In this document: one piece after another, positions 8,947-42,737 of the stretch
Layout: every line of letters starts with the position of its first letter
Numbering within the stretch: the stretch's first letter is position 1
Assembly (NCBI GenBank): GCA_028386065.3
Contig: JAKUCV010003526.1
Coordinates: 250,253 to 314,252 of the forward strand
Direction: 5' to 3'
Length of the DNA: 64,000 nucleotides
Origin: Turnera subulata
Taxonomy: Eukaryota; Streptophyta; Magnoliopsida; Malpighiales; Passifloraceae
Position numbers and translations under genes: made by a program
Notes under the pieces: generated by a model
The model's database searches: none
Told to the model about the DNA's origin: nothing
The model's input: only the letters and a program-made list of their open reading frames with translations

Positions 8947-8948
8947 TN

Positions 8949-9019
<71 letters not shown>
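8947..9019. other. N plus 72-base C homopolymer
   Basis: One N followed by 72 uninterrupted C residues. Such a run beside an N is most simply a consensus or gap-fill artefact. The glycine-only frame opposite is not a gene. Confidence 0.85.
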
Positions 9020-16571: not shown

Positions 16572-17688
16572 CCCCTACAGCTACAGATATGGCGATTCTT
16601 CTGGGACAATTTGCATAGGAGTTCTCTACTCGTGTTCCTCCTCTGCTTCTCAACAAGCTTGCTCCAATTCTCCTCCTTCTTCTCATTTTCTTGCTCTCCT
16701 CTTGCTACTGCCTTGCTACTACTCCTCTCCACGCAATTCCTCCAGAATTTCAACCATGGAAGGGTTCCTAAGCTTTGAATTATAGAATTATCCCAAGCAT
16801 CTAAGCTTTTGTGTCTATAGAGACAGAAGAGAGAAATTGTGTGTGAATGAGGGCTAATAGGGGGCCTATTTATAGTGTTCAGGGGGTCTGGACGTGGTTT
16901 TGATCTAAGGGTCGGGATTGAATCCCTAGATCCAACGGTAGATACCCAGAATCAAGAGAACAAGAAAAATCGGGAAAACTGCCAAAACCAGGAGCGATGT
17001 CCACCAAGCGCTGGCGGTCGTCTCGCCAGGTGCTGGCGGTTTTGTCGCCATGTCCGCCGGCACCTGTTTCCAGAACTGTTCTTTCCTTTCCGGTTTTGAT
17101 CCTCGTTATTCTGGACCAAATTGATTCCCACGCCCTTCATAGTTGGTTTTTTACTTGTTTTGAGCTCCAGAAATCCTCCTAACTTGTAGCCTTCCCCCAC
17201 CCATTTTCATAATTTCTTTACTTTCTCTCTACTCCACTCTAATTACCATAAAACACCAAAAACACTTAAGGAAATAATTTAATTCGAATTTTGGACAAAA
17301 ATTCAGAGTAAATTCACCCCTAAGTCCAGTGTTTTGATGGGCCAAAAATGCTAGAGGATCCATATTTAATTGGTTCAGGCTCCTAAATTATTTTAAACTC
17401 AAAATTATCTCAAATGGGTCCAAAATAAATAAAAAGGCCTAAAACAACTAAATACCCATATTTTTATTAAATCCAGAATTTAAATATACTTAAACTCAAA
17501 ATGAAATCATCTCAATAATCCCGAGTTAATACACAAAAATCCAAAAATAATAAAAATATTAAACTCATCAAATTAAATTATAAACACATTTTTTCTAAGG
17601 ATCAAATCATCTCATTAATCCACGGACGAAAACACATTTATAATTCCATAAAACGAATTATTAGCAGGTCAAATTTGGGGCGTTCACA
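16572..17688 (-). mobile_element. LTR 'C' of Tat/Ogre-like element, truncated
   Basis: Matches LTR D (about 51100-52234), including the TATTTATAG box (16866-16875, a TATAAATA box on the minus strand), GGCGGT-rich blocks and the terminus GTTCACA at 17688. The ~610 bases that open LTR D on the plus strand are missing. The sequence to its right (GATGCCCCTCG...) matches the one beside LTR A, so this is the 3' LTR of a minus-strand element. Confidence 0.75.
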
Positions 17689-17819
17689 GATGCCCCTCGT
17701 TGATGAATCTTTAGGAACTGAAGACAAACCAACGAAAAGAAGAACGTCCAAATTTGATGGAGTAGGTGTTGATACTGATGCTGACGTATGTGCCATGGGT
17801 CGGGAATCATCCCAACTCG

Positions 17820-18200
17820 GGCTTTAAGGAATTTATCGTCCTCCTTAAGGGACTCAGTTTGTGATAGAATCATCTCGTCTATCGGATCGTCAACAAATAA
17901 TCTACTTTGTCAACTAGGGATATGTCTCCTCCCTTAGGGGTGATTTCGGGGTTACCTACTTTCTAGGGATTTTATCGTCCTCCCTGGGGAACTCGGGTTT
18001 GGTAGAATTATCTCATCTACCAGGCCGTGAACAAAGAATCCTCTCATCTCAGCTAAGTAGGGATATGTCTCCTCCCGTGGGGGTGATTTCGGGGCTACCT
18101 ACTATCTAGGGATTTTATCGTCCTCCCTGGGGAACTTGGGATTTATCTTGGTTGTGGAAATTGTCTCATCCCTCCCATGGCATCACGTGTCTTCTCATCA
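17820..18200. repeat. Hairpin-repeat array in C-D 3' UTR
   Basis: A series of short inverted repeats with related loops. TTAAGG/CCTTAA at 17824-17848 has a 13-nt loop. GATAG/CTATC at 17863-17883 has loop AATCATCTCGT. TGGTAG/CTACCA at 18000-18022 has loop AATTATCTCAT. CTAGGG-type stems follow with loops ATATGTCTCCT and ATTTTATCGTCCT. A unit of roughly 140-150 bases (GGGATATGTCTCCTCCC ... GGGATTTTATCGTCCTCCC) is repeated twice. Confidence 0.75.
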
Positions 18201-18227
18201 GCCGTCAACAAATTTTGGGGTATTACA

Positions 18228-18860
18228 TACCCCTCGGGGTAGTATGCCCCAAAGAAAACCATCTCTAGTAATGGGGTTTCATATTCCAGAAATTTGATTT
18301 AGAACGAGGTAGCATGCCCCGTGTATTGATTCAGAACAGGGTAGCATGCCCCAAGTGAGCCTCATCGACACATGCGGTAGCATGCCCCGAGAAACAAAAA
18401 CATCATCTAACGGGGTAGCATGTCCCGAAAAATAAACACATCACATAACGGGGTAGCATACCCCGAGAAACAAAAACACATCACATAACGGGGTAGCATG
18501 TCCCGGAAGACAGAACACATCACATAACGGGGTAGCATGCCCAGAAAAAATGTTTCAAACCAATGGGGTAGCATGCCCTAGAAATTAAAGACTCAAAACA
18601 TGGGGCAGCACGCCCCAAAAAGAATCTGAAGGCTACATGAAGAACATAAGCCAGATAATGGAACAAATAGAACAATCAGGGTAGCATGCCTGAAAAGCGA
18701 AACAATCAAACCATGGGGAAGCGTGCCCAAAAATTCAAACAAATGGGGTTGCATGCCCCGGAGAGATCAACTCAGACAAGCAAAAAAAAAAAAAATACAT
18801 ACAAATGGAGCATGCCCAAGAAAATTCATTAAAGTCGTGGGGTAGTATACCCCGAAAAAT
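18228..18860. repeat. ~40-bp tandem array with GGGGTAGCATGCCCC core
   Basis: About 15 copies of a unit whose core is a small hairpin (CGGGG/CCCCG around TAGCATG) separated by A-rich spacers such as AAACAAAAACACATCACATA. Variant cores keep pairing: TGGGGC/GCCCCA at 18601-18617 and TCAGG/CCTGA at 18676-18693. Position in the 3' UTR next to the 3' LTR fits the tandem subrepeats known from Tat/Ogre elements. Confidence 0.85.
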
Positions 18861-22011: not shown

Positions 22012-22738
22012 TGTGAAAAAACCGAATTTACCTCTATATGAATGATTCCTTTGGGAAGGTCCTTGTGCTTGTAGAACTGGAGAGAGTAGGACCTAGGAAG
22101 GTTGCCTGTAGGAACTGCAAAGACCAACAAAGAGTAGGACCCGGGGAGGTCCAGGGTTTGTGACCCGGGGAGGTCGAGGGTTTATGACCCTTGATGACAC
22201 TCCGATGCCTAAGTCAGATAGGGGATTTTCTCTGTGGAGAAGAGAGGCAAGAGAGAGAGAATTTAGAGAAATAAGCAGTCTATTTATAAGGAAAATTAGA
22301 CTCTATGTCTTCCCAGCTGGACTTGGTCCTAGAATTTTACCTTGGACCTGGGCCTGACCTTGTTGGTGGGCTGAAGGTGAAATTCCATATGTTATCACTA
22401 GTCCCTAACTCTGAGGAATGTTGTGCAGCAACATTCCTAAGAGTTTATTTCCTCCAAGATAAGATTTTATCTTCTTACTTGATTTCTAAGCTCGTTGAGT
22501 TTTTTAATCACCCCCTTGTTGATGTCAGTTCATCAAGTGACCAAAAGTTTGACTTGAATTTTGTCTTGTCCAAATTGAAAGCCCGTTAAGCCCTCTATAC
22601 AAGCTAGTGGTCCTTATGTAAGGCGATTGAGGACTTTGTTGAGCTTATGTTAACCTCATTTTGGCTTTTGCACCTTTCTCTGGACCTACAAGAAGTCTCA
22701 TTTGGATTTGTACGTAGCCCCCATTCTAAGTTGTAACA
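22012..22738 (-). mobile_element. LTR 'E' of gypsy element E-F
   Basis: 22012-22400 matches F (45164-45561): it starts TGTGAAAAAACCGAATTTACC-like, includes GACACTCCGATGCCTAAGTC, and runs to CATATGTTATCAC. Beyond this the copies differ. E continues, possibly to GTAACA at 22738; F ends shortly after. The right boundary is therefore uncertain. Next to it lie the hairpin array and the rest of the interior, so it is the 3' LTR of a minus-strand element. Confidence 0.6.
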
Positions 22739-23519
22739 AGACTTTTTGCCTTTTTGATGTCCCTAGGTGGTCTTCTTCTTGGGGATTTTTTTTATTTAGA
22801 ACGTTTTCTTTTCTCGCCTGGATTTGGTTGCATGGCCTATAGCCATCCTTTAAATGGATGCTACCAATAAGTCGAGGCCATTTCTGAAGGAGTTTCATGA
22901 CTGATAGGTACTTATAGTTCCTCAGAGGCATGGTGGGAGGACTTTTGGTGGGATGTTCCTAGTAACTCAAGGTCCTTGACGGTCCTTTTTAGGGTTTTCC
23001 ACGACTCTGGAGCTCTTGCTAATGGGAGCTTATTTAGTTACACTTTGAGTTTCCCTAGAGGTCCTTAACTGTAATTTAAGTTATCCAAGAGCTTCTGCTA
23101 AGGGTTTCCTAGTTCTCCCCTTTCTTATAAGGCATATATGAAGACCCGAGAAAGATTTTCTTACCAAAGAATTTTCCTCATCTATAGAGACTTGAAGTAA
23201 TTTTATTAATAATGTAAACTTAAAAAGAATACTTATTGCAAACCCATTAAGGAGGGCTGCTCAAAGTTTGGAGTAAGGACTTATGATCTCTGCCTTAATG
23301 AAAAAATTTTGGCTTACTGCGTAAGACATGGCATAAGGTTTTAAGAAGGAGAAAACTACCGTTGAAAAACATTAGTACCTTAGATTTTTAATGTTTTTTT
23401 TGGAGATTTTGGTACTTCGAATTACAAGGACATTTGGAGAAAGCAGTTCAAGTCCCTCTGTGGAGGGTTTGGAACCTCGTACTTCAAGGAGGTAGGACCT
23501 CCGAGTAAGATGAAGGTCC
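22739..23519. other. E-F 3' interior, non-coding
   Basis: No ORF with recognisable content. GGTCCTT/AAGGACC-type words become frequent toward the right, grading into the tandem array. Confidence 0.4.
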
Positions 23520-24170
23520 TTCATTTCAAGGTCCTTTTAGGAGGTTTTGAATTCTTGGATGTCAAGAAAGTAGGACCTCCGGTTTCAATGAGGTAGGACT
23601 TCCGGTCTCAATGAGGTAGGACTTCCGGTCTCAAGCAGGTAGGACCATCGGTCTTAAAGGGTAGGACCCTCGTCTCATGGAAGTAGGACTTCCAATTTCA
23701 AGGAGGTAGGACCTCCGGTCTTAAGGGGCTAGGTCCCCTTCTCAAGAAAGTAGGACTTCCGGTCTCAAGGGGGTAGGACCCCCGTTTCACGAAAGTAAGA
23801 CTTCTGGTTTCAAGGAGGTAGGACCTCCGTCTAACAGAAGTAGGACCTCCGGTTTCAGGGAGGTAGGACCTCCGATCTTAAGGGGGTTAGGACCCCGTCT
23901 CACGGATGTAGGACCTCCGATTTCAAGGAGGTACAACCTCCGGTCTCACGGAGATAGGACCTTCGTTCTTAAGGGGGTACTACCCCATCTCAAGGAAGTA
24001 GGACTCCCGGTTTCAAGGAGGTAGGACCTCTGTCTCACGGAAGTAGGACTTCTGATTTTAAGAAGGTAGGACCTCTGTCTCACGGAAGTAGGACTTCCGA
24101 TTTTAAGGAGGTAGGACCCCGTCTCATGGAAGTAGGACCTCCGATTTCAAGGAGGTAACTTTGCGCAGGG
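23520..24170. repeat. Tandem hairpin array with TAGGA loop
   Basis: Roughly 25 units of about 23-30 bases. Typical cores are GGAGG/CCTCC (23702-23716), TGGAAG/CTTCCA (23678-23694), AGGG/CCCT (23658-23670) and GGGGG/CCCCC (about 23770-23785), all around the loop TAGGA, plus AAGGGG/CCCCTT around CTAGGT (23723-23740). Spacers are variants of GGTTTCAA or GTCTCACG. Many but not all units pair perfectly. Confidence 0.85.
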
Positions 24171-24388: not shown

Positions 24389-25962
24389 TGTGAATACCCG
24401 ACCCAAAATCACTTGGGCATATTCACCTATTCCATTCACCTTCTTCCTCGGGTCAATCCCATAACATTGGAGTCGCCACCCAAGTTTTATTAAGGAACAA
24501 ACTTGGGAAAAACCTTAGTGTGACTCCTTTAGGCTACATGGTCATGGCGAACCAAAGTCATGGGATCGGGGGTTCGTCACAGATGGGAAGGTGTTAGGCA
24601 CCCGTCCATGTTGGGTCGAGACTATGTGCAATTACAAAATGCAAGTGTGCCTGGTGTTAGTGTGCATGTGTGGAAAAGTAAAGAGAAGGGGAGAGGAAGA
24701 AGATTTGGCTTGCATCCCATTGTAAAACCGAGACTACCTACGTACCTGAGTGATCGGGGTCAAAGCCACGTAGTTCTAAACTTGGCACTTATCGGCCACT
24801 TACATCATCAAAAGCATCAACATATAATCAACAAAGATCAATAAAAAAGAAGGTTTAGTGTTACCTCTTGTAGCTCTCCTCTAGCTCCTTGCAATGGTGA
24901 GTTCTACACCCAACTTCTTGCCACTTCTAAGCTCTATAGTTGATCTTCTTCTTGACCTCTCCTTGCTAGACTACTACTAAAGCCTCCCACAAAATTCCTC
25001 CAGAGTTTCTGCCTAAAGAATGTATTTCTAGGCTTGGAGAAGTAGAGTTTCTCCAAGCACTCAAGGCTTATAGGTGTATATGTGAGAAAAGTTTGTGATC
25101 CCCATGAAATGTATGTGAGGGGTCCTATTTATAGTGCTCTGGGATGCCTAGGGGTGTGGACCTGCTTAATGGTGAAGATTATGCCCAAAAATCTGGTCCA
25201 AAACCGCGTAGGAACGAAATTAAAAACAAAATTGGAGAATTGGGCGAATCTGGAAGGACAAGACCGCCGCTTCCGGCGGTCATCCACTGCTTGACCGCAA
25301 GTGCCAGCAGTCTTGAGTGGATGCCCGCCAGGACCTAGCAGTCGTCTCGAGAGGACCGCCGGTGGCCCCGCGTGTCACCCATTCTTTCTATTTTCGGACC
25401 CCCAATCCCCCTAATTAACCCTTACTCAACCAGAATCAGTCAATTACTTGATTATCACTCCCCCTAAATCATTCATTAACAGATTGATTACACCCTAATG
25501 CCTTTTTCATACTAAGTCTTGCCAAAAACAACATTTCTACATAAATGATGATTTAACTCTGATTTTCCACGAAAATGAGAGCCAAAATTAACCTGCAAAA
25601 AATGTGTCAATGGGCTGGGTAAACTCTGGAGAATCCATTTACCTGGACCCTTAAACCCATTCCAAACCCAAAAATAAATCATCAGATAATTGGGTTAAAA
25701 ACAACTAAAAAAGCCCAAGCAATGAAAATGTATCCTAATATAAATAAACCTTATTATATATTTTACCCTAAGACTAAGTCATCTCATTAATCCTAAGGTT
25801 GGGATGCACAAAGGTTTAGATTACCAAAAACACATTAATTCTACTAAATTAAATTCTTATCATGCCTTGACTTAAAATCAAACCAACTTATTAACCTCAA
25901 GTTAAGCATGTTTGGAATATAATTTTAGCAAAACATTCATGGGTCAAATTTGGGTATTCACA
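24389..25962 (-). mobile_element. LTR 'A': 3' LTR of Tat/Ogre-like element A-B
   Basis: 1,574 bp with terminal inverted repeats TGTGAATACCC and GGGTATTCACA. It closely matches LTR B. The minus-strand TATA box TATAAATAG lies at 25125-25134. Upstream of it in minus orientation is a perfect hairpin, GACCGCCG/CGGCGGTC with loop CTTC (25262-25281). The 3' UTR hairpin array lies at its right edge, consistent with a minus-strand 3' LTR. Confidence 0.85.
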
Positions 25963-26069
25963 GATGCCCCTGAGTCCTTAGGAACCAAGGACGAAACAAC
26001 GTAAGATAGGAACCACCAAATTTGAATGATGAATGTATAGTGTGTGTTAAGTTTTGGAGCAACACATGA
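25963..26069. other. A-B sequence between LTR A and the array
   Basis: GATGCCCCTGAGTCCTTAGG and following bases match the sequence right of LTR C, confirming common descent. The purine-rich strand adjoining the LTR would be the polypurine tract region. Non-coding. Confidence 0.5.
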
Positions 26070-26935
26070 GATAGAATCATCTCATCTATCAGGTTGTTGA
26101 TAAGGAATAATCCCACCCTTGTCAGCTGGGTTTTGACTTGGGAATCATCTCATCCCAAGTCTCGAGAATCATCTCATCCCGAGGTGAAAGAATCATCTCA
26201 TCTATCGGGTTGTCGACAAGGAATAATCCTACCCTTGTCAGCTGGGTTTTGATGATTCCCAAGTCTCGGGAATCATGGCATCCCGAGGTGATAGAATCAT
26301 CTCGTCTATGGGGGTTGTCGACAAGGAATACTGTCACCCTTGTTAGTTGGGTTTCGACCTGCGAATCGTCTCATCCCATGTCTCAGGAATCATCTCATCC
26401 CGAGGTGATAGAATCATCTCATCTATCGGGTTGTCGACAAGGAATACTCCCATCCATGTCAGCTGGGTTTCGACTTGGGAATCATCTCATCTCAAGTCTC
26501 GGGAATCATCTCATCCCGAGGTGATAGAATCATCTCATTTATCGGGTTATCGAAAAGGAATACTCCCATCCTTGTCAACTGGGTTTCGACTTGAGAATCA
26601 TCTCGTCCCAAGTCTCGGGAATCATCTCATCCCGAGGTGATGAAATCATCTCATCTATCGGGTTGTCGACAAGGAATACTCCCATCCTTGTCCTCTGGGT
26701 TTCGACATTGGAATCTTCTCATCCCAAGTCTCGGGAATCATCTCATCCCGAGGTGATAGAATCATCTCATCTATCGGGTTGTCGACAAGGAATACTCCCA
26801 TCCTTGTCAGCTAGGTTTTGACTTGGGAATCATCTCATCCCAAGTCTCGGGAATCATCTCATCTATCAGGTTGTCGACAAGGAATACTCCGATCCTTGTC
26901 AGCTGGGTTTCGACTTGGGAATCATCTCATCCCAG
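26070..26935. repeat. ~115-bp tandem array built of four hairpins per unit
   Basis: About seven units. Each contains four short inverted repeats: ACTTGGG/CCCAAGT (26136-26160), CTCGGG/CCCGAG (26265-26287), GATAG/CTATC (26070-26090) and GACAAGG/CCTTGTC (26215-26239). The first three share the 11-nt loop AATCATCTCAT; the fourth has the related loop AATACTCCCAT or AATAATCCTAC. Open frames across it are a by-product of the repeat period. Confidence 0.9.
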
Positions 26936-27890
26936 AATTTGGTTTTGCATGTACCGGGTACACGGCTTTGGTTTTATTCTCTTCTTCCCCTTGCTTGTGA
27001 AAATTGGGGTCCCCGACTTCTGGCTTGTATATCTCAAGGCCGACTCATCTCAAAGTTTGCAAGGGTCGGCCCCTTGGCTTATTGATTTCCGTCATGTCTG
27101 GATCTACTCTCGAGATCTTCTCTCGTCTTGTGATTTGCGGGAGCTGGATCCCTGCCTGGGTCCTCTCATCCTTTTGGTTGCAAGGACTGGGTCCTGGGCT
27201 CTGGGTATCTCACCTTCGGGTGTCTCAAATTCTCTCGTTGTCTTATCGATTTTCTCTCAAATTAGGTCCTTCTCATTTCTCAGATCGCGGAGCTGAGTCC
27301 CGAATTTTGATTTGCTCGCCTTTCGTCTCTCTCTCTCGTCTCATAGTTGAACTCACTCTCTTCAGGGTTTACTCTTACTTGGTTTATCTCACCTTCATCA
27401 TCTCGCAGCTTGTGGATACTGGGACTCGGCTTTGGGTTCACTCCTCTATGGGTATTCTCTCATTTTCGGGTTAGGGTTGGATGTGTTTTTAAAATCATCC
27501 TAGTGTTTCTGGTCAACTCGCAATCTCACGGTATTAAGAAGGATGTTTCCTCATGGTCAGGTTGTCTGGGTCTCATGCCCCTGCTTACTGGACCTAATGT
27601 TGTGCCCCTTGAGACATACAAATCAAAAGTGGGATGCGATGCCCCTAGCAACTCGTCATGGTCTTAGAGATGAGGTTCTGGTGAGCCCATAGTACCATCT
27701 TTTCAAAACCAATGGGAACCGTGCTCTTAATTCAGGATTTTTAGGGAATCGAGACAATGAATATAATAAATGATTAATTCAAACAATGTATCTCATTATT
27801 CGGGACTCAAAAATATGCATACAGGGTTTTATCTCAGTAGAAAGGCCGTTTCGGGGCGCGGGGCCCGTAAAAACTGAGGTGGGACACCAA
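26936..27890. other. Degenerate continuation of A-B 3' UTR
   Basis: Rich in CTCATCTC, GGGTC and TCTCGGG words, which look like decayed array units; GGCCGAC...GTCGGCC at about 27040-27075 can still pair. Overlapping open frames (to 157 residues) are low-complexity Ser/Leu-rich and have no domain. No gene. Confidence 0.45.
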
Positions 27891-27895
27891 AACAG

Positions 27896-28010
27896 AGGCG
27901 GCGGTCATGCTAGAAGGCCCGCCAGAGCCCGACGGTCATGTGGGGATGACCGCCAGGGCATGGCGGTCTTCTCGTGATGTCAGTCGGCCCTATTTTGGGT
28001 TTAAAAACCC
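27896..28010 (+). promoter_or_regulatory. Putative promoter of the antisense PMD gene
   Basis: Contains hairpin GACCGCCA/TGGCGGTC (loop GGGCA, 27948-27968), then GGGTTTAAAAACCC at about 27997-28010 as a TATA-like box, then a CT-rich leader. The same GC-rich motif type lies upstream of the TATA box in LTRs A and B. Promoter activity is inferred from arrangement only. Confidence 0.4.
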
Positions 28011-28424
28011 CTTTCCATCTCTCTCTCCTCATTCTTCACTCATAACACCCCAAACACCAAAATCCTTTCGATTTTCTCTTCTCCTCCTACCCTCAAAACA
28101 CTCTAAAACACCTCTCAACTTCTCCCATTCCTCACCCATGGCATCACCATCATGAAATCCTTCCAAATTGCGGGAAGAGACTGTGAGGAAATATCGTCCC
28201 AAATCTAGCCCAGGGGAGAATCCAAGTTTGTTGCTGAAATCTCCTAGTAGGCACATCTCCATCAAACTCCATAAGGTTTAAGTAAGTGATTTCTTCACCA
28301 AAAACCCATTGGATTACATTTTTGATTGAATCTTTGAGCCTATGCCCCTATGCCTTTAGAATCTGAATTTGTGTGATGCATGTTGTGTTTGGATTTTTAA
28401 AAGATGCTCCTAGGATGTTTATAA
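28011..28424 (+). other. Putative 5' leader and first intron of PMD gene
   Basis: CT-rich, C/A-rich leader-like sequence (28020-28140), short frames only, then GTTTAAGTAAGTGATTTC near 28275, which includes a donor-like AAGTAAGTG. The copia inserted downstream at 28424. No coding domain before the copia. The exon-intron reading is a guess. Confidence 0.3.
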
Positions 28425-29801
28425 TGTTAGTAATATGCCCAAAAGCCAATCAATGGATGATTGTAGTCATGTATATACATTGAGGTTATTCCAATAAATA
28501 TGATTATGAGATAATCGCTTGCACATATTTATAACCCTAGAATACTTTGTATTCTTAAAATGTCCCTAGTCGATTATTATTATGGATGGGTTGTAATAAT
28601 AAATTAAGACTAGCGTATGTTGAGAATTATATGAGATATGAATTCTACATACGGGTATAAGTTAGAGAACTTGTGGACTGGACCGACCCGCATAAGAACC
28701 CTACATGGAACGTTATATTATTGTCATTAGTGGTTCTTATATGTATTGTCCTTAGACCTGAGATCACCAAGGTTCCCAACATATGAGTCATATACTTTGA
28801 TATTATTCCTAGTCATCTGTAACTGGGTGAACTTAAGAATAATCAATGGGTATATGATAAATGTGTAGTGGATTTTGATTGATCAAGATGGGATTCGTCT
28901 GACCCATATAACGAGTATATTATCAGTTGGGCCTCTTGATAGAGTTGAACTGTAAATGCATGGCCATGCTTGGATTATATGATATGGTGATATCATTAGG
29001 ATACCTTTTACACAGTTAACTCGGGGATCAAGAAGCTAAGAATAAATATATACGAGATTGACGTTTTCCATGTCTCGGTTTAATCTTGATAATGGGATGA
29101 AAGGACGATGACATGTTCCGAGGCATATAGAATCAGTACTGATCTTGTCATTCGGGTAGCAATGATGTGTTGCTAGACGCCACTCTTTGCTTATAATTGT
29201 AAAATGAGATTGGCGGTTGAACCGTGGTTGGACCATGGTTCGATCGGCTGTGGTTAGACCATGGTTGGACCGTGGTTGGACCAGGGTCGTTTTGGCTGGT
29301 TTGGTTCAGTTATTGACAGAATTATTGGACCAAATTAGTGCTGTGATGAGTGTTTGTACATTAGTAGAGACATGGTTTTTTGGAGACATAATCATAAATG
29401 ATAATGGGCCAATATGTTGGCCATTATTCCATTGTCTCTTAGCAGTAATTGGGGGTAGAGTAATCAAATTACTCTTGACCCTTCTCACTCTCTCTTGCAT
29501 TATGAATTCTAAGTTTTTCAGAGCAAGAAAGACACACACATCTTTCTCTCTTCTTTGTGAAAGAAAGAGATACCATAAACACCATATGTAGCTCCAGGAA
29601 ATCCGTAGCTAACACCACGGTTCGGGAGTGCTCGGGGGTTGGAGCTCTAGCTGATTCAGTTCTTCAGTTGGGTGAAAGATCCTAACCGTTTCATGTATGT
29701 TTGTTTTGTAGTTCGGTTTAGTTGCTTCACTTGGATCCTCCAAGGTTTCCGGGTCTTTCCGCTGCTCTTTATTGTCAAGTTTGCATGCCTGGATACTTAC
29801 A
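28425..29801 (+). mobile_element. 5' LTR of copia element
   Basis: 1,377 bp, starts TGTTAGTAATATGCCC, ends GATACTTACA. TSD TATAA lies at 28420-28424. It is about 130 bases shorter than the 3' LTR because of two deletions: one in the ATTTTACAATTATTG region and one after GGGGGTTGGAG. A run of GGTTGGACCAT-like units lies at 29215-29285. Confidence 0.95.
29215..29287 (+). repeat. GGTTGGACCAT short tandem units in copia LTR
   Basis: Six degenerate units (GGTTGAACCGT, GGTTGGACCAT, GGTTCGATCGG, GGTTAGACCAT, GGTTGGACCGT, GGTTGGACCAG). The 3' LTR has five at about 35850-35930, and the second copia LTR has a comparable run in reverse at about 61225-61290. Their position well inside the LTR suggests U3 enhancer-like repeats; function is inferred. 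Confidence 0.7.
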
Positions 29802-31277
29802 GTGGTAGCAGAGCCTCTTGTCAAGCTCTAAACCGAATTTAGTTGTGCATATGTGTGATATGTTCTTCTTAATGTGTGCGATATGCTGAATTCATTTTTG
29901 TATATGCGATATATGTTGAGGTTGGTTGTGTCAAAAGGGTTTTGACAACAAGCACTTGATTGGTATGTGATATCAACCAAGAGGTTCTTGGTAGTAAATC
30001 GAAGGGCTTCGACAAAAGGAAAATCGATTGTCGATTTTCATAAGGAACGATGGTCGTTCTAGTGCATCGAGGCCAGAACATCGATGTTCAATAACTCATG
30101 TGAACATCGATGTTCAATGGTTGAACATCGATGTTCACATGAGTTTTGGCCTTGGCAGAAGTCTGAAACATCGATGTTCAGTAGGGAACATCGATGTTCA
30201 GGGCAGAAATATCGATGTTTAGGGCCTATACATCGATGTTTAAAAGTACTGCCATGAAACTTGAATTGGAAGAGGTCTCCAACATCGATGTTCATGAGTC
30301 CTACATCGATGTTTAAGGGTTAGATATCGATGTTTAAAACTACTGCCTAATTCTTGGACTTTCAGAACCTTCCAACATTGATGTTGAGGTCTAGACATTG
30401 ATGTTCTTGTGTTCTAGAGGCCAAATGACATCGATGTTCAGGATAGGACATCGATGTCCACGAGCATTGCCAGGTTGTTGGGAGAATCAGATTCTCAAAA
30501 CATCGATGTTCATATAATTTTTGGGCCGGGGCTCTGCCCCGAGCCCTGGCAAGGGCGCTGCCCCTTAGCGGGACCGCCGTGCTACCTCTGCATAGCGGCT
30601 TATATTGTATATGATGCATTGTTATTGTATATGAGAAATATAATTTGTGAATTACATGCATGACATGTATGGATACAATTGTTGACAAGTATTCATCATT
30701 GCTTAGATCAACATTTGGTAGGTTTTGCCAAAGCAAGGTGCCAATGTTTATCCTAGCAAGAAGTGATGGCATAATTGTTATGCATGGAAACAATTGTTGA
30801 TATAAATATTAAGTTCTTAGTTGCCTTCCATGATAAGCACTCATCATTGCTTAGATCAACATTAGGTAGGTTTTGCCAAAGCAAGGTGCCTATGTTTATC
30901 CTAGCAAGGTGCGATTGGATAATTGTAATATCTGAACTGCTTATTGTGGGTTTGGACTTAACTAGGTCATCTTAATAGGATTAAGGACTTAGAGGCAAGG
31001 AGTTGAGTAATGTCTATGAGATAGACAAGAACAAGTGTTGTTCGCTCAACTATTCAAGAGTTACATGAGATGTAATTGGCAAGAGTTGTCTACCTAAATA
31101 GCTATGATGTAGGCGATCAGCCAAAGCTGACTTATATTGTAGTGAAATATGGATCTTGGCCTACACATGATTATTTTGTTTTCGTAGTAGGAACATCATT
31201 TAATAGAATTCCTTGTTAAATGATTTTTGTATACATGACTCTGATTTGTGTGAGTTGATCATTGTTGTAGAATTTCC
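29802..31277 (+). mobile_element. Copia leader with PBS and palindrome array
   Basis: PBS TGGTAGCAGAGCC at 29803-29815 (one difference from the initiator-tRNA-Met site). A ~1.46-kb leader without ORF follows. It includes the ATCGAT array (30078-30511) and a direct duplication: CATCATTGCTTAGATCAACA with GGTAGGTTTTGCCAAAGCAA at about 30690 and again at about 30840. Confidence 0.8.
30078..30511. repeat. 15 dispersed ACATCGATGT palindromes
   Basis: Cores at about 30078, 30104, 30125, 30168, 30188, 30209, 30230, 30282, 30303, 30324, 30374, 30395, 30428, 30448 and 30499. The best form is the 14-bp perfect palindrome GAACATCGATGTTC; 30448 reads GGACATCGATGTCC, still fully self-complementary. Spacing is often 20-21 or multiples, otherwise irregular, with non-identical spacers. 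Confidence 0.9.
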
Positions 31278-32078
31278 ATGACACAAAACACTAGCACATT
31301 ATCATTGCGATCGGTCCTTGAGAAGGAAAGCTGAATGGAAATAGTTTCCTAAAGCGGCATCGCATTTTGAGGATAGTCCTCAAACAAGAAAAGAAGCTGT
31401 ATGTCCTTGAAGGGCCTGTTCCGATTGAACCAGCGCCTAATACTCCTAAGGCAGAAAGGGATGCTTATAAGAAGCATCTTGATGATGCATTGGATATCGC
31501 ATGTCTTATGCTAATAGCCATGGAATCTGGGCTTTCAGAAGCAACATGAGAACATGGGGGCGTTCGATATGATCGAACACCTAAAGATGCTCTTTTATGA
31601 GCAAGCAAGGCATGAGAGGTGTGAGACCTCTATGGCATTGTTCCAATGCAGGATGGCTGAGTCATCACCCGTGAAACCTCATGTGGTCAAAATGATTGGT
31701 TACATTGAGAGCCTTGAGGGTCTTGGTTTTCCTTTGCAAAAGGAGTTGGCGGTTGATCTAGTCCTGCAATCGTTGCCGAACAGTTACAGCCAATTTGTCA
31801 TAAACTTCAATATGAATCATCTTGACAAATCCTTGTCTGAGTTGCTCAAAATGTTAGGAACAGCTGAGCAACAGATGAAGGCATACAAATCCAACAGCAT
31901 TATGATGGTTGGAAGTAGCAAGGGAAAGGGTAAGGGAAAGGTGAAGAAATTAGCCAAAAAGTTTGGTGCATGTGCATCTTCTTGTGACCACGTGCTGAAA
32001 CCCAAGGGTGGTATTGCAAAGGAAGGACATTGTTTCCATTGCAACAAACCGGGCCATTGGAAGCGCAACTACCCTTGA
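31278..32078 (+). pseudogene. Copia gag, frameshifted
   Basis: Begins at ATG 31278 (MTQNTSTLSLRSVLEKE), shifts frame near 31330, continues as RIVLKQEKKLYVLEGPVP, and returns to the first frame near 31550. From there 175 residues are open, including the gag core (LPNSYSQFVINFNMNHLDKS) and a basic KGKGKGKVKKLAKK stretch. The C-terminal zinc knuckle CFHCNKPGHWKRNY should be CX2CX4HX4C, but the final Cys is Tyr, and a stop follows shortly. Gag would package the element RNA; this copy cannot make a full protein. Confidence 0.9.
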
Positions 32079-32159
32079 AGAGGTAAAGAAGAAGAAGGAA
32101 AGTAAGACTTTCCACTTCAGGTATTTTTGTTATATAAGCAAATATCTCTATCTCTGCAA

Positions 32160-32540
32160 CATGGGTATTTGATACCGAATGTGGTTCTCACATTTGTGTA
32201 AATGTGATGGAATTGAGAAAGGAGATTGGCAAAGGGTGAGATAGACCTACGTGTTGGAAATGGAGCAAGAGTTGCTGCATTAGCCGTAGGAACTTACTAT
32301 CTATCCTTACAGAGTGGTTTGGTTTTAGAACTGGACGATTGTTATTATGTACCTACCATAAGCAGAAATTTGATTTCTGTTTCTTGTCTGGACAAGAAAG
32401 GCTTTTCATTTGTAATAAAGAACAAATGTTGTTCTATTTATTTCAATGATATTTATTATGGTGGTGCATATTTGAGCAATGGTTTGTATGTTCTAAACCT
32501 AGAAACGGCAATCTATAACGTTAATACGAAGAAGGTTTGA
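32160..32540 (+). pseudogene. Copia protease remnant
   Basis: WVFDTECGSHIC at 32162-32197 is the aspartic protease active-site region, where the usual D(T/S)G reads DTE. A frameshift at about 32220 follows, then YVPTISRNLISVSCLDKKG, the conserved end of the domain. An in-frame TGA at 32538-32540 separates it from the integrase part. The glycine loss and breaks would inactivate processing. Confidence 0.85.
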
Positions 32541-33330
32541 ATGAACGATTCTAATGAAACCTACCTTTGGCATTGTCGTTTGGGCCATATAAACGAGACT
32601 CGTATTGCTAAACTTCATAAAGATGGACTTTTAGACTCATTTGATTTCGAATCGTTTGAGACATGTGAGTCATGCTTATTAGGCAAAATGACGAAAGCTC
32701 CCTTTACTGGTAAAGGAGAAAGAGCTTCGGACTTATTAGGTCTTATACATTCTGATGTATGCGGACCTATGTCTACACAGGCTAGAGGTGGTTTTCAATA
32801 CTTTATTACATTTATTGATGATTACAGTAGATATGGCTTTGTGTATCTAATGAGACACAAGTCAAAATCCTTTGAAAAGTTCAAAGAATTCAAGAATGAA
32901 GTACAGAATCAACTCGGTAAAAGTATTAAAATGCTTCGATCTGATCGAGGAGGTGAATACTTAAGCCTAGATTTTCTTGATCATCTAAAGGATTGTGGTA
33001 TAGTATCACAACTTACTCCACCAGTAATAGCTCAATCGAATGGTGTGTCCGAAAGGAGGAACAGAACCTTGTTAGACATGGTTCATTCTATGATGAGTCA
33101 AGCTGACCTTCCTTCTTCATTTTGGGGACATGCATTATTGATGTTGCATTTACACTTAACCGTGTTCCATTGAAATCGGTTGAAAAGACACCATATGAGA
33201 AATGGACTGGGAAGCGTCCCAATTTGTCTTTCATGAGGATTTGGGATTGTGAGGCTTACGTGAGACGTGAAGCATCAGTAAACTCGGCTCTAAATCCGAG
33301 AAGTCCCTCTTGTAGGATACCCTAAGGAAA
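32541..33330 (+). pseudogene. Copia integrase (GAG_pre-integrase plus DDE core)
   Basis: The HHCC zinc-binding region shows as LWHCRLGHINE and CESCLLGKM. The core has HSDVCGPM (first Asp), RSDRGGEY (second Asp) and SERRNRTLLDMV (catalytic Glu), so the DDE triad is still present. A frameshift near 33145 moves the continuation (NRVPLKSVEKTPYEKW) to another frame, and a second break comes near 33290-33325. Integrase inserts the cDNA, leaving the 5-bp duplications seen at this element. Confidence 0.9.
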
Positions 33331-33368
33331 CTAAAGGGTATTACTTCTATAATCCCACCGACTACAAA

Positions 33369-34985
33369 GTGTTTGTTGCTCGGACTGCTATTTTTCTAGA
33401 AATAAAATTTATTTCTAGAGGAATCAGTGGGAGGAAAATAGAACTCGAAGAAGTTCGAGATCTAGAGGCCGAGATGGAACAAGGACAGGAACCACAAGAT
33501 GTTGTGGATGAGAATCCTGTACCTGTAACACATGCACCGCGTAGGTCTGATAGGATTCAGTATGAGCCTGAGAGATATGGATTTCTCATGACTCATACTG
33601 GGGACATGATGCTCATAGAAGAGGATGAGCCCACTTCCTATCAGCAGGCCGTCACGGGTCCAGACTCTAAAAAGTGGCTGGAAGCCATGAATTCGGAAAT
33701 GGAATCCATGTATCATAACAAGGTATGGACCTTGGTTGATCCACCTGAAGGGGTAAAACCCATAGGGTGCAAGTGGGTCTTTAAGAAAAGACCGACATGG
33801 ATGGTAATGTGATTACCTATAAAGGGCGATTGGTGGTAAAAGGTTTTAAGCAAGTTCATGGTATTGACTACGATGAAACTTTCTCACCAGTTGCCATGGT
33901 AAAATCCATCCGGATTCTATTGGCTATAGCGGCATCATATGACTATGAAATATGGCAAATGGATGTCCAAACCGCTTTCCTTAACAGAAATCTTTTAGAG
34001 GATGTGTACATGACACAACCTGAAGATTTTGTCGATCCAGAGAATGCCAATATGGTATGCAAGTTGCAGAGATCCATTTATGGATTGAAGCAAGCTTCTA
34101 GGAGTTGGAATCTTCGTTTTAATGAAGTGATCAAAGAGTTTGGTTTCATTAAGAACGAAGATGAACCATGTGTTTACAAGAAGGTTAGTGGGAGCATTAT
34201 TGTTTTCTTGTTGTTATATGTTGATGACATTCTACTCATTGGGAATGACATTCTGACACTACAGTCTGTAAAGACTTGGTTAGGGAAGAATTTCTCGATG
34301 AAGGACTTAGGAGAAGCTGCCTATGTGTTAGGTATAAAGATCTATAAAGATAGATCCAAAAGGCTTCTCGGGCTAAGTCAGAGTACGTATATTGACAAGG
34401 TGCTAAAGAGGTTTAGCATGCAAGATTCCAAGAAAGGATTCTTGCCCATGTCACTTGGCGTATCTCTCTCTAAGAATCAATGTCCTAGTACATCCAAGGA
34501 GAGAGAGCGGATGAGTAAGATCCCTTATGCTTCGGCAATAGGATCTATCATGTATTCCATGCTATGTACTCGACCGGATGTCGCTTATGCTTTGAGTGTC
34601 ACAAGCAGATATCAATCTGATCCCGATGAGAGTCACTGGACAGCGGTTAAGAACATCCTTAAGTACATGAGAAGGACTAAGGATGCATTTCTTGTCTATG
34701 GAAGCGTTGATGAGCTAGTTGTAAAGGGTTACACAGATGCTAGCTTCCAAACTGACAGGGATGACTTTAGATCCCAATCAGGTTATGTGTTTTATCTTGG
34801 AGATGGTGCTGTGAGCTGGAACAGTTCTAAGCAAGAAACAGTTGCCAATTCTTCAACTGAGGCTGTACAAAGTTCCTTCTGAGAACTATGTAGCAGATCC
34901 TTTGGCTGAGCTTTTCACACAGCGGAAGCATGATGGTCATGCTACAACCATTGGTATTAGATACATGGATGATTGGCTTTAGTAC
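33369..34985 (+). pseudogene. Copia reverse transcriptase and partial RNase H
   Basis: 33369-33800 carries the linker and RT start (SYQQAVTGPDSKKWLEAM, GCKWVFKK), then a frameshift near 33795. The next frame, 361 residues, has QMDVQTAFLN (first catalytic Asp), IYGLKQASRSWN and LLYVDDILLIGND (YVDD box), then RNase H opening with GYTDASFQTD. RNase H is broken: after STEA the sequence jumps to VQSSF/VPSEN-type sequence, losing about 75 residues that the minus-strand copia at 62276-62510 keeps. The reading ends just before the PPT AAGTGGGAGAT. Confidence 0.92.
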
Positions 34986-34996
34986 AAGTGGGAGAT

Positions 34997-36500
34997 TGTT
35001 AGTAATATGCCCAAAAGCCAATCAATGGATGATTGTAGTCATGTATATACATTGAGGTTATTCCAACAAATATGATTATGAGATAATCGCTTGCACATAT
35101 TTATAACCCTAGAATACTTTGTATTCTTAAAATGTCCCTAGTCGATTAATATTTTGGATGGGTTGTAATAATAAATTAAGACTAGCGTATGTTGAGAATT
35201 ATATGAGATATGAATTCTACATACGGGTACAAGTTAGAGAACTTGTGGACTGGACAGACCCACATAAGAACCCTACATGAAACGTTATATGATTGTCATT
35301 AGTGGTTCTTATATGTATTGTCCTTAGACCTGAGATCATTGAGGTTCCCAACATTTGAGTCGTATACTTTGATATTATTCCTAGTCATCCGTAACTAGGT
35401 GGACTTAAGGGTAATCATTGGGTATATGATAAATGTGTAGTGGATTTTGACTGATCAAGATGGGATTCGTCCGACCCATATAGCGGGTATATTATCAGTT
35501 GGGCCTCCTGATAGAGTTGAACTGTAAATGCATGGCCATGCTCGGATTATATGATATGGTGATATCATTAGGATCCGTTTTACACAGTTAACTCGGGGAT
35601 CAAGAAACTAAGATTAAATATATACGAGATTGACGTTTTCCATGTCTCGGTTTAATCTTGATAGTGGGACGAAAGGACGATGACATGTTTCGAGGCATAT
35701 AGAATCAGTACTGATCTTGTCGCTCAGGTAGCAATGATGTGTTGCTAGACGCCGCTCTTTGCTTATAATTGTAAAATGAGATTTTACAATTATTGTCGAA
35801 CGTTACAAGCGCCTACAGGGTCACACACATAGAATCGTTGATTCGAGCAGGTGGTTGAACCGTGGTTGGACCATGGTTCGACCGGATGTGGTTAGATCAT
35901 GGTTGGACCAGGGTCGTTTTGGGCTGGTTTGGTTCAACTATTGACAGAATTATTGGACCAAATTAGTGCTGTGATGAGTATTTGTACATTAGTGGAGACA
36001 TGGTTATGTGGAGACATAATCATAAAAGATAATGGGCCAATATGTTGGCCATTATCCCATTGTCTCTAAGCACTAACTGGGGGTAGAGTATTCAGATTAC
36101 TCTTGACCCTTCTCACTCTCTCTTGCATTCTGAATTCTGAGTTTTTCAGAGCTAGAAACACACACACATCTTCCTCTCTTCTTTGTGAAGGAAAGAGATA
36201 CCATAAACACCACATATAGCTCCCGGAAATCCGTAGCTAGCACCACGGTTTGGGAGTGCTCGGGGGTTGGAGATCGTGAGACGATTCCAGCCGGTGATTG
36301 ACGGTTCGGGTGGATACCGCAGAGGAGCAGGATATCCTTCCGGCTCTAGCTGATTCGGTTCTTCAGTTAGGTGAAAGATCCTAACTGTTTCATGTATTTT
36401 TGTTTTGTAGTTCGGTTTAGTTGCTTCACTTGGATCCTCCAAGGTTTCCGGGTCTTTCCGCTGCTCTTGATTGTCAAGTTTGCATGCCTAGATACTTACA
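34997..36500 (+). mobile_element. 3' LTR of copia element, TSD TATAA
   Basis: 1,504 bp, preceded by PPT AAGTGGGAGAT, starting TGTTAGTAATATGCCC and ending GATACTTACA. The right TSD TATAA at 36501-36505 exactly matches the left one, so the element (28425-36500, 8,076 bp) is structurally complete. A perfect 13-bp hairpin (ATAATTGTAAAAT/ATTTTACAATTAT, loop GAG) lies at 35765-35793. Confidence 0.95.
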
Positions 36501-36505
36501 TATAA

Positions 36506-36890
36506 TGCCATTCTATATGCCTTTTTTGTGGATTAAACACAAGAAATCGCAAATTGAGGTTTTGCCGAAATTGAGGGTTTAGGGTTCTTGGCAAAATTTA
36601 GAGATTTTGGGTGTTTCTGGTGTTGTTTTGACATTGTGAGTGCTTAAGGTTGATCTTGGGTGACTAGGTATTGGTGGGTTTGTCTGAATTTTGATCAATT
36701 TTGAACTTCGCCGGGGCGGATTTTTGTGATTTTCTTGCGTTTTGACCCGTAAATGAAACTGTGCTACGATGTTTGAATGCATGATGCAAGTGCGTAATCC
36801 CATCCCTGTGATGCATGTCTTGATGTATGTGGCCTCGGTTTAGTCTTGGCGAACCCGGGTTGGCATGTGTGTTGACCTCTTTTGGTGTTT
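36506..36890 (+). other. Putative intron before the PMD exon
   Basis: Non-coding T-rich sequence after the copia, ending TGTTTCTACACAG near 36898, an acceptor-like site directly before the PMD frame. Reading it as intron is inference. Confidence 0.35.
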
Positions 36891-37640
36891 CTACACAGGA
36901 TTCGAAGGACAGGCAGCGAAACCATACCTGGGCTAATGCACGCCATCTCATCCGTGAACATGTGAGGAAGGATAGGCCTGTTCGGCAGATCACTCAGAGG
37001 GTCGGGTTGTGGGACTTCTTTTGCACTTTCCGAGGAGACAAAGTCGACCTGCATGCTGTATCGGCTCTATGTGAGAGATGGTCGGATACCACCAATACCT
37101 TCCACTTTGCTTGTGGTGAGATGACTATGACTCTTTCGGATTTTACCCACATTACCGGGCTACTATTCCATGGTGATCCGGTCGTCTTTTATCAGCATCT
37201 AGGCCTCGATCGTTTTCAAAAGTTGGTGGGACTTGTCTCTGACTGGGTCCGCACATGTGAGGTATCTCCTACGTGGCTACAAAACGCCTTATTTGATCCT
37301 CAGTATCCTGGGACGACTGAGCAGAGAGCTCGAGGCTTGATATTGGTGAGCTTGAGTAGATCCCTCTTTGCTTCCAGCAGTGATCGGGTTCGGTGCGATT
37401 TATTGGCGTCGCTTGTCCACCTGGACAGACCGTAGATTGATTGGGCTTCGGTGGGTTTCGTAAACGCCTACCGGGAGATGTGAAATTTTTCCCGGGTTGC
37501 GGCAAAGTACTTTTATGGTTTAGGTTGGATTTGGGAGGTCATGGCCTGTTTCTCTTCGTTGGGGCTCCCCGAGTCGCGGGGCCAGGAGTAACGCCCACGA
37601 CCGGGTACGGGCCCGTCACTATATAGACCAGGTTCCCATG
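36890..37640 (+). pseudogene. Plant mobile domain (PMD/MAIN-like) pseudogene, main exon
   Basis: The frame through 36827-37435 matches the plant mobile domain family (Arabidopsis MAIN/MAIL1 and many transposon-borne relatives). It has VRQITQRVGLWDFF, then the family hallmark FHFACGEMTMTLSDFTHITGL (about residues 92-112 of the frame), then FDPQYPGTTEQRARG. It stops at LVHLDRP (TAG at 37433), but the same frame goes on with IDWASVGFVNAYREM, another stop, and YFYGLGWIWEVMACF, which still looks like the family. So it is a decayed gene with at least two nonsense changes. It lies antisense to host element A-B. PMD proteins act in the nucleus in silencing and gene regulation; their role in elements is unclear. 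Confidence 0.8.
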
Positions 37641-40379: not shown

Positions 40380-41116
40380 GGTTCCTCTTGAGTGTCAAAA
40401 GTGAAGAAGTAGGTTTTAGTGCCTTGCTCAGGTGGGCTTAAAAGGGAGGCTAGAAACAAATGGTTGGATAGGACATGGGCTGACTCTTGATTCGGCATAT
40501 TATCTTTTCCAAAACCTAATGGAAAATGACATGTGATATGCACTCCTAACTCCTCAAACTCTTAGGGCAATTGGGCAATCACTCAAATCATCACGATGGA
40601 CTTACTATGAGTTTTGGTGAACCACCGCTTGAAAACATGGAATCTCTTCCCTTTTAATAGCCATGGATGGTTACCCTCCATTCCTCCCTTCTCAAATCCC
40701 CATATATGTATGGATTCAAATCCCAAAATAACAAGATACAACACATACGTATAACACACCAAAGTCCATACACATGCACGTACCACTTATTGATTCATAG
40801 TGCATGAGATGATCAGGGTATGCAGTTGGTTGGGGGCCAAAAGAATGTCGCTAGGGAATAGGCTGACCTACTCACATGTGATAAAGGATATCACGTGAGG
40901 TCCGAGGCTAATTAATCCCCATCATTGCTAAACATTGAGAAACGGGTTCACTCAAACCACTATCGCTTAAGGAAAGCATGTAGCGGATTTGGATTCCCTC
41001 GCCCTCTTAAGGTAAAGGCTTCACATCAACTGTTATAAATGCAAGGCACTTATGATGACAAGTAAAAGGCACACAAGATTTCAACAATTGCATAAAGTCT
41101 CTTGAACCCACTACTT
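40380..41116 (-). other. A-B 5' untranslated region
   Basis: GCATGAGATGATCAGGGTAT and GGGGGCCAAAAGAATGTCGC (40803-40855) match the 5' UTR left of LTR D at 50150-50200, showing shared leader architecture. No ORF. Confidence 0.6.
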
Positions 41117-41135
41117 CCCTAGTGGAGTCGCCAAC
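41117..41135 (-). other. Primer-binding site of A-B
   Basis: The minus strand reads TTGGCGACTCCACTAGGG directly after LTR B. This is the TGGCGACTCC-type site of Tat/Ogre gypsy elements, usually assigned to tRNA-Arg. LTR D has the same site at 50467-50484 with CCGCTGGGG. Confidence 0.8.
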
Positions 41136-42737
41136 GGTGAATACCCGACCCAAAATCACTTGGGCCTATTCACCTATTCCTTTCACCTTCTTCCTCGGGT
41201 CAATCCCATAACATTAGAGTCGCCACCCAAGTTTTATTAAGGACAAAACTTGGGAAAAACCTTAGTGTGACTCCATTAGGCTACATGGTCATGGCGAACC
41301 AAAGTCATGGGATCGGGGGTTCGTCATAAATGGGAAGGTGTTAGGCACCAATCCATGTTGGGTCGAGACTATATGCAATTATAAAATATAAGTGTGCCTG
41401 GTGTGAGTGTGCATGTGTGGAAAAGTAAAGAGAAGGGGAGAAGAAGAAGAATTGGCTTGCATCCCGTTGTAAAACCGAGACTACCTACGTTCCCGAGTGA
41501 TCGGGGTCAAAGCCACGCAGTTGTAAACATGGCACTTATCGGCCACTTACATCATCAAAAGCATCAACATATAATCAACAAAGATCAATCAAAAAGAAGG
41601 TTTAGTATTACCTCTTGTAGCTCTCCTCTAGCTCCTTGCAATGGGTTGAGTTCTACACCCACCTTCTTGCCGCTTCTGAGCTCCAAGGTTGATCCTCTTC
41701 TTGACCTCTCCTTGCTGGACTACTGCTAAAGCCTCCTACCAAACTCCTCCAGAGTTTTCTGCCTAAAGAGTGTATTTCTAGGCTTGGAGAAGTAGAGTTT
41801 CTCCAAGCACTCAAGGCTTGTAGGTGTATATGCGAGAAAATTTTGTGATCCCCTTGAAATGTGTGTGAGGGGTCCTATTTATAGTGCTCTGGGAAGCCTA
41901 GGGGCGTGAACCTGCTTAATGGTGAAGATTATGCCCGAAAATCTGGTCCAAAACCGCATAGGATCGAAATTAAAAACAAAATCGGAGATTTGGGCGAATC
42001 TGGAAGGACATGACCGCCGCTGTCGGCGGTCATCCACTGCTTGACCGCCAGTGCCAGCGGTTTTGAGTGGATGCTCGCCAGCACCTAGCGGTCGTCTCGA
42101 GATGACCGCCGGTTGCCCTGCGTGTCACCCGTTCTTTCCATTTTCGAACCCCCAATCCCCCTAATTCAGCTCTAATTTGATCCTACCGTAATTAATCCCT
42201 AATCAACCCAGAATCACTCAATTACTTGATTATCACTCCCCCTAAATCATTCCATAACAGATTGATTACACCCTAATGCCTATTTCATACTAAGTCATGC
42301 CAAAAACAATATTTCTACAAAGATGATGATTTAACTTTGATTTTCCACGAAAATCAGAGCCAAATTAACCTGCAAAAAATGTGTCATTGGGCTGGGTAAA
42401 CTCTGGAGAATCCATTCACTTGGACCCTTGAACCATTCCTAACCCAAAATGAATCATCATAAAATTGGATTAAAAACAACTAAAAAGGCCCAAGCAATGA
42501 AAATGTATCCTAATGTAAATAAACCTTATTATATATTTTACCCTAAGACTAAATCATCTCATTAATCCTAAGGTGGGGATACACAAAGGTTTAGATTACC
42601 AAAAACACAATAATTCTACTAAATTAAATTCTTATCATGCCTTGACTTAAAATCAAATCAACTTATTAACCTCAAGTTAAGCATGTTTGGAATCTAATTT
42701 TAGCAAAACTTTCGTGGGTCAAATTTGGGTGTTCACA
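41136..42737 (-). mobile_element. LTR 'B': 5' LTR of A-B
   Basis: 1,602 bp, a close match to LTR A. The first base is changed (GGTGAATACCC instead of TGTGAATACCC), and the right end is GGGTGTTCACA. TATAAATAG box (minus) at 41875-41884; hairpin GACCGCCG/CGGCGGTC (loop CTGT) at 42012-42031. The right TSD TAGTG is at 42738-42742. Confidence 0.85.

Follow-up and report, generated by a model that had tools for sequence, protein, structure and literature searches.

How can a hairpin loop stay constant through a tandem array when the stems around it differ and still pair? The question is raised by positions 26070 to 26935 of the window, by which we mean the whole 64,000-nucleotide stretch of Turnera subulata DNA analysed here. 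A sequence-only reading had described a unit of about 115 bp with four paired stems and an 11-nt loop in three of them. This description is confirmed by the repeat period of 116 bp, by shuffling and by the loop counts.

Units, hairpins and loops of array 1

Tandem Repeats Finder gives array 1 a period of 116 with 5.2 copies at 26257-26863, and its rows span 26070 to 26934. The hairpins of a full unit follow each other on the plus strand in the order H3, H4, H1, H2. Their arms are GACTTGGG/CCCAAGTC (H1), CTCGGG/CCCGAG (H2), GATAG/CTATC (H3) and GACAAGG/CCTTGTC (H4). H1, H2 and H3 have the loop AATCATCTCAT in common, spaced by 24 bp in the unit, and the loop of H4 is AATACTCCCAT. Each class is represented by an intact example:

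26820..26846: H1, GACTTGGGA-ATCATCTCA-TCCCAAGTC
26498..26520: H2, CTCGGGA-ATCATCTCA-TCCCGAG
26407..26427: H3, GATAGA-ATCATCTCA-TCTATC
26668..26692: H4, GACAAGGA-ATACTCCCA-TCCTTGTC

With at most one mismatch, AATCATCTCAT has 33 matches on the two strands of the window against 1.94 expected; 20 of the 33 are inside 26070-26935, every one on the plus strand. From the array we extracted 29 hairpins (7 H1, 6 H2, 7 H3, 8 H4 and one chimera), a count that excludes an overlapping spurious match at 26225 and the destroyed H1 site at 26251-26265. All core pairs are intact in 13 of the 28 classed copies, and at least one is lost in the other 15. A coding array was rejected by inspection, because 116 is not divisible by 3.

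The element that carries the array

Array 1 belongs to an old LTR element on the minus strand (element 1). It begins 107 bp from the 3' LTR, between that LTR and the internal part; the initial assignment to the 3' portion of a Tat/Ogre-like element was correct. The element consists of the following features:

24391..25962, minus strand: 3' LTR of element 1
26070..26935, minus strand: array 1, 116-bp units in tandem, each with four hairpins
28425..36501, plus strand: Ty1/copia element nested in the internal region, with gag-pre-integrase, integrase and RVT_2 domains
36824..37432, plus strand: ORF with the plant mobile domain PF10536 (E 2.9e-18), antisense to element 1
41116..41133, minus strand: putative primer-binding site TGGCGACTCCACTAGGGA, identified by eye, with 4 nt between it and the inner edge of the 5' LTR
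41138..42737, minus strand: 5' LTR of element 1; the two LTRs are 91.7% identical

The LTRs differ by 99 mismatches in 1,568 aligned bases (6.3%), and their ends are TGAATACCC and TTCA/TTCACA. No target-site duplication was found, the 5-bp flanks, read by eye, being mismatched. Element 1 is read from right to left, on the minus strand, because TGGCGACTCCACTAGGGA lies beside the right-hand LTR on that strand.

The Tat lineage is marked by two RNase H domains (aRH), by RT/INT phylogeny and by a primer site for a non-Met tRNA. No Pfam pol domain was found in the 15 scanned of the 39 ORF pieces of at least 60 aa in element 1, which is therefore called Tat/Ogre-like and apparently non-autonomous. 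It looks like a Tat/Ogre element but is not a proven member of the lineage. Element 1 has a tandem array on the inner side of its 3' LTR, a frequent but not universal Tat trait, and an Ogre-like extra ORF with a plant mobile domain, in antisense. Such an ORF is common in Ogre elements (57%) but does not define them, according to the available text of PMC6317226. None of 125 candidates was a protein homologue of this ORF at E 0.001. A second open frame antisense to element 1, at 37867-38496 on the plus strand, has no Pfam match.

Arms covary between hairpin classes, not between copies

In the unit consensus, contiguous pairing extends over 5, 7, 8 and 6 bp, 26 bp in total. When the loops were kept and the remainder of the unit was shuffled, this total was reached in 0 of 200,000 shuffles (mean 1.4, maximum 15). 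The sequence-only reading was right on the real stems, the constant loop and the classes that differ yet remain paired. The arms of H1, H3 and H4 match their own partners at 8, 5 and 7 positions, but only 2-3 of 8 when crossed with one another. Those of H1 and H2 cross-pair at 5 and 6 of 8 positions, and over nine pairs the two hairpins differ by one two-sided change from one Watson-Crick pair to another and by two outer changes giving G.T; H1 and H2 are close relatives. Among the 24 arm permutations of the four classes the true pairing gives 23 of 24 pairs, and the runner-up, in which two are swapped, gives 21.

Among the copies, 156 of 176 core stem cells agree with the class consensus. The other 20 are altered, 19 of them on one side (8 mismatches, 6 G.T and 5 A.C), and the single two-sided cell is unpaired. 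Departures from the consensus affect 15 of 308 loop bases and 21 of 352 stem bases, and the four units on a regular grid differ at 22 of 464 bases. The arms of array 1 thus covary between hairpin classes, not between copies, and the claim that both arms differ together is true of the four classes inside the unit and untrue of the copies. The LTRs of element 1 differ by 6.3%, so the copies probably diverged in large part by decay after the insertion, and this divergence therefore cannot test selection before it. The one-sided changes have no strand preference (G.T 6, A.C 5), and at the class level an excess of G.T rests on too few events.

The break-up of one long ancestral palindrome had been named at the outset as an alternative that would refute the reading. 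It is not supported, because such a break-up would invert some loops, yet all 20 loop matches of array 1 are on one strand.

A distant relative in the same window

A further element in the window, element 3, has a 3' region that is homologous to that of element 1:

16575..17693, minus strand: part of the 3' LTR of element 3
17694..18216, minus strand: homologous 3' region of element 3, with hairpins of the same loop family and partly different stems

The 3' LTRs of elements 1 and 3 align at 58-64%. The H3 region of element 3 aligns with the array 1 copies at 71-85% over 35-73 columns, and a longer piece at 62% over 193. Conservation goes beyond the hairpins: 55 columns next to the LTR align at 76%. 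The leader and LTR start align at 67.5% with a copy near 50100.

We took all sites in 17694-18216 within four substitutions of AATCATCTCAT, ignoring the arms, and kept seven after removal of overlaps. Within these sites 24 of 42 arm positions pair, and 4 of 5,040 permutations are as high. Without the two H3 homologues the five remaining sites give 13 of 30 pairs, a weak result (4 of 120 permutations as high). For the 11 loci made up of the four class consensuses of element 1 and the seven sites of element 3, 47 of 66 pairs are Watson-Crick, against a permutation expectation of 24.9 (sd 4.5), and none of 100,000 permutations reaches this value.

Between homologous hairpins we found two-sided changes from one Watson-Crick pair to another in H1/H2 (one), in H3a/H3b (one, GATAG/CTATC to GGTAG/CTACC) and in C0/Ca (two). 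One-sided changes that break pairs are found in Aa/Ab, in Ba/Bb and in the outer part of Ca/Cb, and one H4 of element 3, inspected by eye, lacks one arm. Compared with random positions, the flanking stems of element 3 give p 0.011 for 8 TCTC sites and 0.026 for 20 ATC sites. By eye, H4 apparently has a further two-sided change.

Both elements also carry the 11-mer AATCATCTCAT in their LTRs, at 17605 and 52151 and at 42552 and 25777 (the last with one mismatch), where it is followed by TAATCC or CAATCC. No stem of at least five pairs was noticed by eye around these four copies. Because it recurs in these LTRs, the loop 11-mer may itself be a signal at the level of sequence.

One fold-back footprint and one chimera

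Two sites in array 1 deviate from the four classes:

26251..26265: template-switch footprint, 15 nt that replace an H1 hairpin with the reverse complement of the left half of H1
26844..26870: chimeric hairpin, left arm of H2 and right arm of H3, mostly unpaired

The footprint reads GATGATTCCCAAGTC, which is what the first 15 bases of H1 give when reverse-complemented, without a single mismatch. The final eight (8 of 15) equal the normal right arm of H1; the new part is GATGATT, the inverted loop half, which replaces the left arm and loop. The footprint pairs with the neighbouring H2 arm and forms a new 9-bp stem at 26252-26276. It is the sole novel inverted word of at least 12 bases in array 1. 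In arrays simulated with point mutation and indels, an inverted 15-mer appeared in 0 and 1 per 4,000 at two mutation settings, in a test devised after the site was seen, and inverted 9-mers were common by chance in the same simulations (P 0.64-0.69). A novel nearby reverse-complement copy beyond point mutation is therefore found once, post hoc. It indicates that a fold-back switch between matching hairpin arms happened at 26251-26265, and gives the suspected arm-rewriting by copying a concrete trace there. The footprint does not show that switches made the other stems of array 1. The chimera, at 26852, represents an exchange through the shared loop and may be a trace of loop-mediated homogenisation.

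Other arrays and repeats

A second hairpin array precedes the 3' LTR of element 1 in window coordinates:

23485..24157: array 2, unrelated 22-23-bp units

Its stem variants include GGAGGT-AGG-ACCTCC, GGAAGT-AGG-ACTTCC and GGGGGT-AGG-ACCCCC. Over 28 sites taken together, left arms match their own right arms at 98 of 140 positions (80.0 expected, sd 3.9, p 1e-4), and among 25 chosen units, 24 of them distinct, 10 cells are two-sided against 4.2 expected (0 of 500 shuffles). The covariation score is 0.239 against 0.172 (1 of 500 shuffles), a control slid by +1 gives 0.234, and kinship among the copies inflates such scores. The number of pairs bearing a two-sided change is not unusual (208 of 500 shuffles). 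We regard the stem covariation of array 2 as suggestive. Folding of the array lies 3.2 sd below that of 20 shuffles. Array 2 probably sits in the 3' region of another LTR element; an LTR-like pair around it, at 22012-22398 and 45164-45561, is 74.8% identical.

Array 4, at 18217-18800 in the 3' region of element 3, contains GGGG-TAGCATG-CCCC boxes mostly 30-40 bp apart. Covariation there is not significant (53 of 78 against 50.8, p 0.21), and the array was left out of the support. The ratio of G.T to A.C among all wobble cells is 12:14 in array 2 and 6:5 in array 4, and over the three arrays no strand asymmetry of wobbles was found (24 G.T against 24 A.C, counted in two ways).

The idea that all tandem arrays here are hairpins was rejected. 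We tested 23 consensus units from 44 Tandem Repeats Finder rows, and apart from array 1, two rows of array 2 and two rows in the copia element, none reaches an uncorrected p of 0.05. Older hairpins in 26945-28400 were rejected as well, the 41 TCTC sites there having a mean stem of 2.49 against 2.63 at random (p 0.85). The array 1 pattern is not enriched elsewhere in the window, with three site pairs outside the array (seven inside) against 0-5 in eight block shuffles. Searches for exact relatives of the array, with one 20-mer in viral contigs and one 21-mer in prokaryote genomes, gave none.

In the nested copia element the palindrome ACATCGATGT occurs 15 times in 432 bp at 29929-30509 (11 exact, 4 with one mismatch). 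These boxes begin about 280 bp inside the copia 5' LTR and are preceded by several hairpins with 3-nt loops and unrelated stems. At 8948-9019 a single N precedes 71 consecutive C, which may be an artefact of sequencing or assembly.

Folding

The whole of array 1 folds better than 20 shuffles on each strand (z -4.4 sense, -6.5 antisense), values that tandem repeats inflate. Two single units, folded as RNA on both strands, have z-scores from -1.1 to -2.3, and one unit folded as single-stranded DNA gives -2.4 and -1.9. For element 3, two units as RNA range from 0.0 to -1.4, and the whole region reaches -1.4 (7 of 100 shuffles as low). Single-unit fold stability in array 1 is modest. With the covariance models of Rfam 15 no match reached the gathering score in the window, and none was found up to E 1 in 25900-27000.

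Origin of the array

Ordinary tandem duplication and drift, with chance pairing or one long palindrome broken up, is a very improbable origin. The copies of array 1 do behave in this way, with 19 of 20 altered cells one-sided, and H1 and H2 differ little, but the stem total is never reached by shuffling and the arm permutations, both over the 11 loci and within element 3, contradict plain drift; the single strand of the 20 loop matches speaks against a palindrome. We also find it improbable that the hairpins are boxes of double-stranded DNA, palindromic protein-binding sites like the Sirevirus motifs, in which pairing would be a mark of dyad symmetry. Array 1 conserves an asymmetric loop and varies the symmetric arms, the reverse of a dyad binding site, and has four different arm pairs within one unit, even though repeated palindromic boxes are described for Sireviruses (available text of PMC2829016) and the nested copia element bears 15 boxes of ACATCGATGT.

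The main rival to template switching is selection alone, on the structure of RNA or single-stranded cDNA, and we consider it quite possible. The same loop would be offered to a protein or partner RNA, any pairing stem would suffice, and compensatory changes would come by ordinary mutation. This would fit a loop that is constant over H1-H3 and recurs in element 3, the pairing retained in that distant element, and the better-than-shuffled folding of the whole array in either orientation (z -4.4 and -6.5). It would also agree with the wobble steps that separate homologous classes, mostly G.T when read on the plus strand, antisense to the element, but the wobbles of arrays 1, 2 and 4 lack a strand bias (G.T:A.C of 6:5, 12:14 and 6:5). 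The modest z-scores of single units and the z of -1.4 for the element 3 region also argue against selection alone, as do the LTR copies of AATCATCTCAT, where no stem of at least five pairs was noticed by eye, and the loss of at least one core pair in 15 of 28 classed copies.

The reading that we favour, with a probability of roughly 40%, combines tandem duplication and fold-back template switching with some selection on the loop or hairpin. We infer that a hairpin module was first duplicated in tandem and that its arms were kept complementary, or made so again, by short fold-back switches, in which a polymerase, the element's reverse transcriptase or the host's, would copy one arm to make the other. 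Such copying would change both arms together and could leave the loop alone. In RNA genes, template switching creates stems, fixes pairing and keeps the loop, according to the available text of PMC8794818. Because pairing and a constant loop occur in two distant elements, we suggest that the hairpin or loop also served the element while it was active, for instance by binding a protein or by acting as a site of strand transfer in RNA or cDNA. The 116-bp unit with its four settled hairpins would then have been amplified, and the copies in array 1 would have decayed one side at a time since insertion. In favour of this reading are the stem total that no shuffle reaches, the arm permutations, the two-sided changes between homologous hairpins, the inverted 15-mer at 26251-26265 and the chimera.

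Template switching does not by itself explain identical H1-H3 loops with differing arms; the constant loop would require selection or homogenisation through the loop. Several results weigh against switching. There is one clear footprint only, the switch destroyed its hairpin, 8 of the 15 bases are normal arm and the test is post hoc. Element 3 also has one-sided changes that break pairs, the five loop-picked sites give a weak 13 of 30, the four-class swap still gives 21 of 24, and the hairpins are not the sole conserved part. Single-unit folding is unremarkable and the independent hairpin classes are few. Taken as a whole, the sequence-only reading stands in its placement, stems, loop and suspicion of copying, and proves too strong on covariation among copies and on folding.

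A bolder version, which we consider unlikely, would make the hypervariable 3' arrays of certain plant Gypsy elements into hairpin satellites that template themselves. Selection would keep the loop constant, fold-back copying in reverse transcription would rewrite the stems as pairs, and strand transfers promoted by the complementary arms would lengthen the array. The window would then contain two unrelated cases, array 2 on the one hand and array 1 together with the element 3 region on the other, and any satellite that began in such an element would carry the same structure.

Comparison with known systems

SatA of Paphiopedilum is likewise tandem DNA with several inverted repeats per monomer, but the available text of PMC6090851 gives it no constant loop, compensatory stems or stated retroelement location. 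The RM boxes of Sireviruses come nearest to the pattern: many short palindromes in non-coding parts of plant LTR elements, with a conserved core and symmetric flanks that differ between elements (PMC2829016, available text). Sireviruses keep a paired core CGG-CCG (except Tnd-1), whereas array 1 keeps an unpaired loop and varies the arms (same text). Array 1 has no constant CGG-CCG core and lies outside the copia element, and element 1, unlike the Sireviruses, is not copia. The Tnd-1 box ACAATCGATTGT, as printed in that text, resembles the box ACATCGATGT of the nested copia element.

Hairpins made by template switching resemble those of array 1 in that the arms change jointly, the loop is retained and inverted-copy footprints are left; in the available text of PMC8794818 they are known from rRNA and microRNA genes, not from a tandem array in a retroelement. 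Array 1 offers a tandem-repeat setting where selection on structure and template switching can be separated, and its constant loop hints at a possible function.

Counterparts in position are the 3' arrays of Tat elements (Ogre, Retand), which are also found beside the 3' LTR as family-specific tandem units of variable copy number (PMC11963269 and PMC7004042, available text). In the same texts about half of the recently active Retand elements surveyed bear such arrays, antisense ORFs occur in the region, and Retand units measure 8-100 bp, against 116 bp in array 1. The word "hairpin" is absent from the available text of PMC11963269, where "palindrom" occurs in a cited title only, and both are absent from that of PMC7004042. 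Hairpin arrays with a constant loop and compensated stems in Tat/Ogre 3' regions were found in none of the matches listed from the open-licence literature, a scope outside which the older Ogre and Retand papers fall. The statement that 3' subrepeats of Tat/Ogre elements are known, and that stem covariation with loop conservation is not known to be described, thus agrees with the listed matches for Tat/Ogre but goes too far for RNA genes, where paired hairpins that arise by template switching and keep their loop are described (PMC8794818, available text). The available text of PMC7004042, citing earlier work, ascribes Tat 3' arrays to illegitimate recombination or abnormal strand transfer; both this text and that of PMC11963269 state that their origin is undetermined, and most of the Lathyrus sativus satellites studied in the former derive from such arrays. 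If hairpins with rewritten stems are common in Tat 3' arrays, fold-back switching would be a concrete route to new units.
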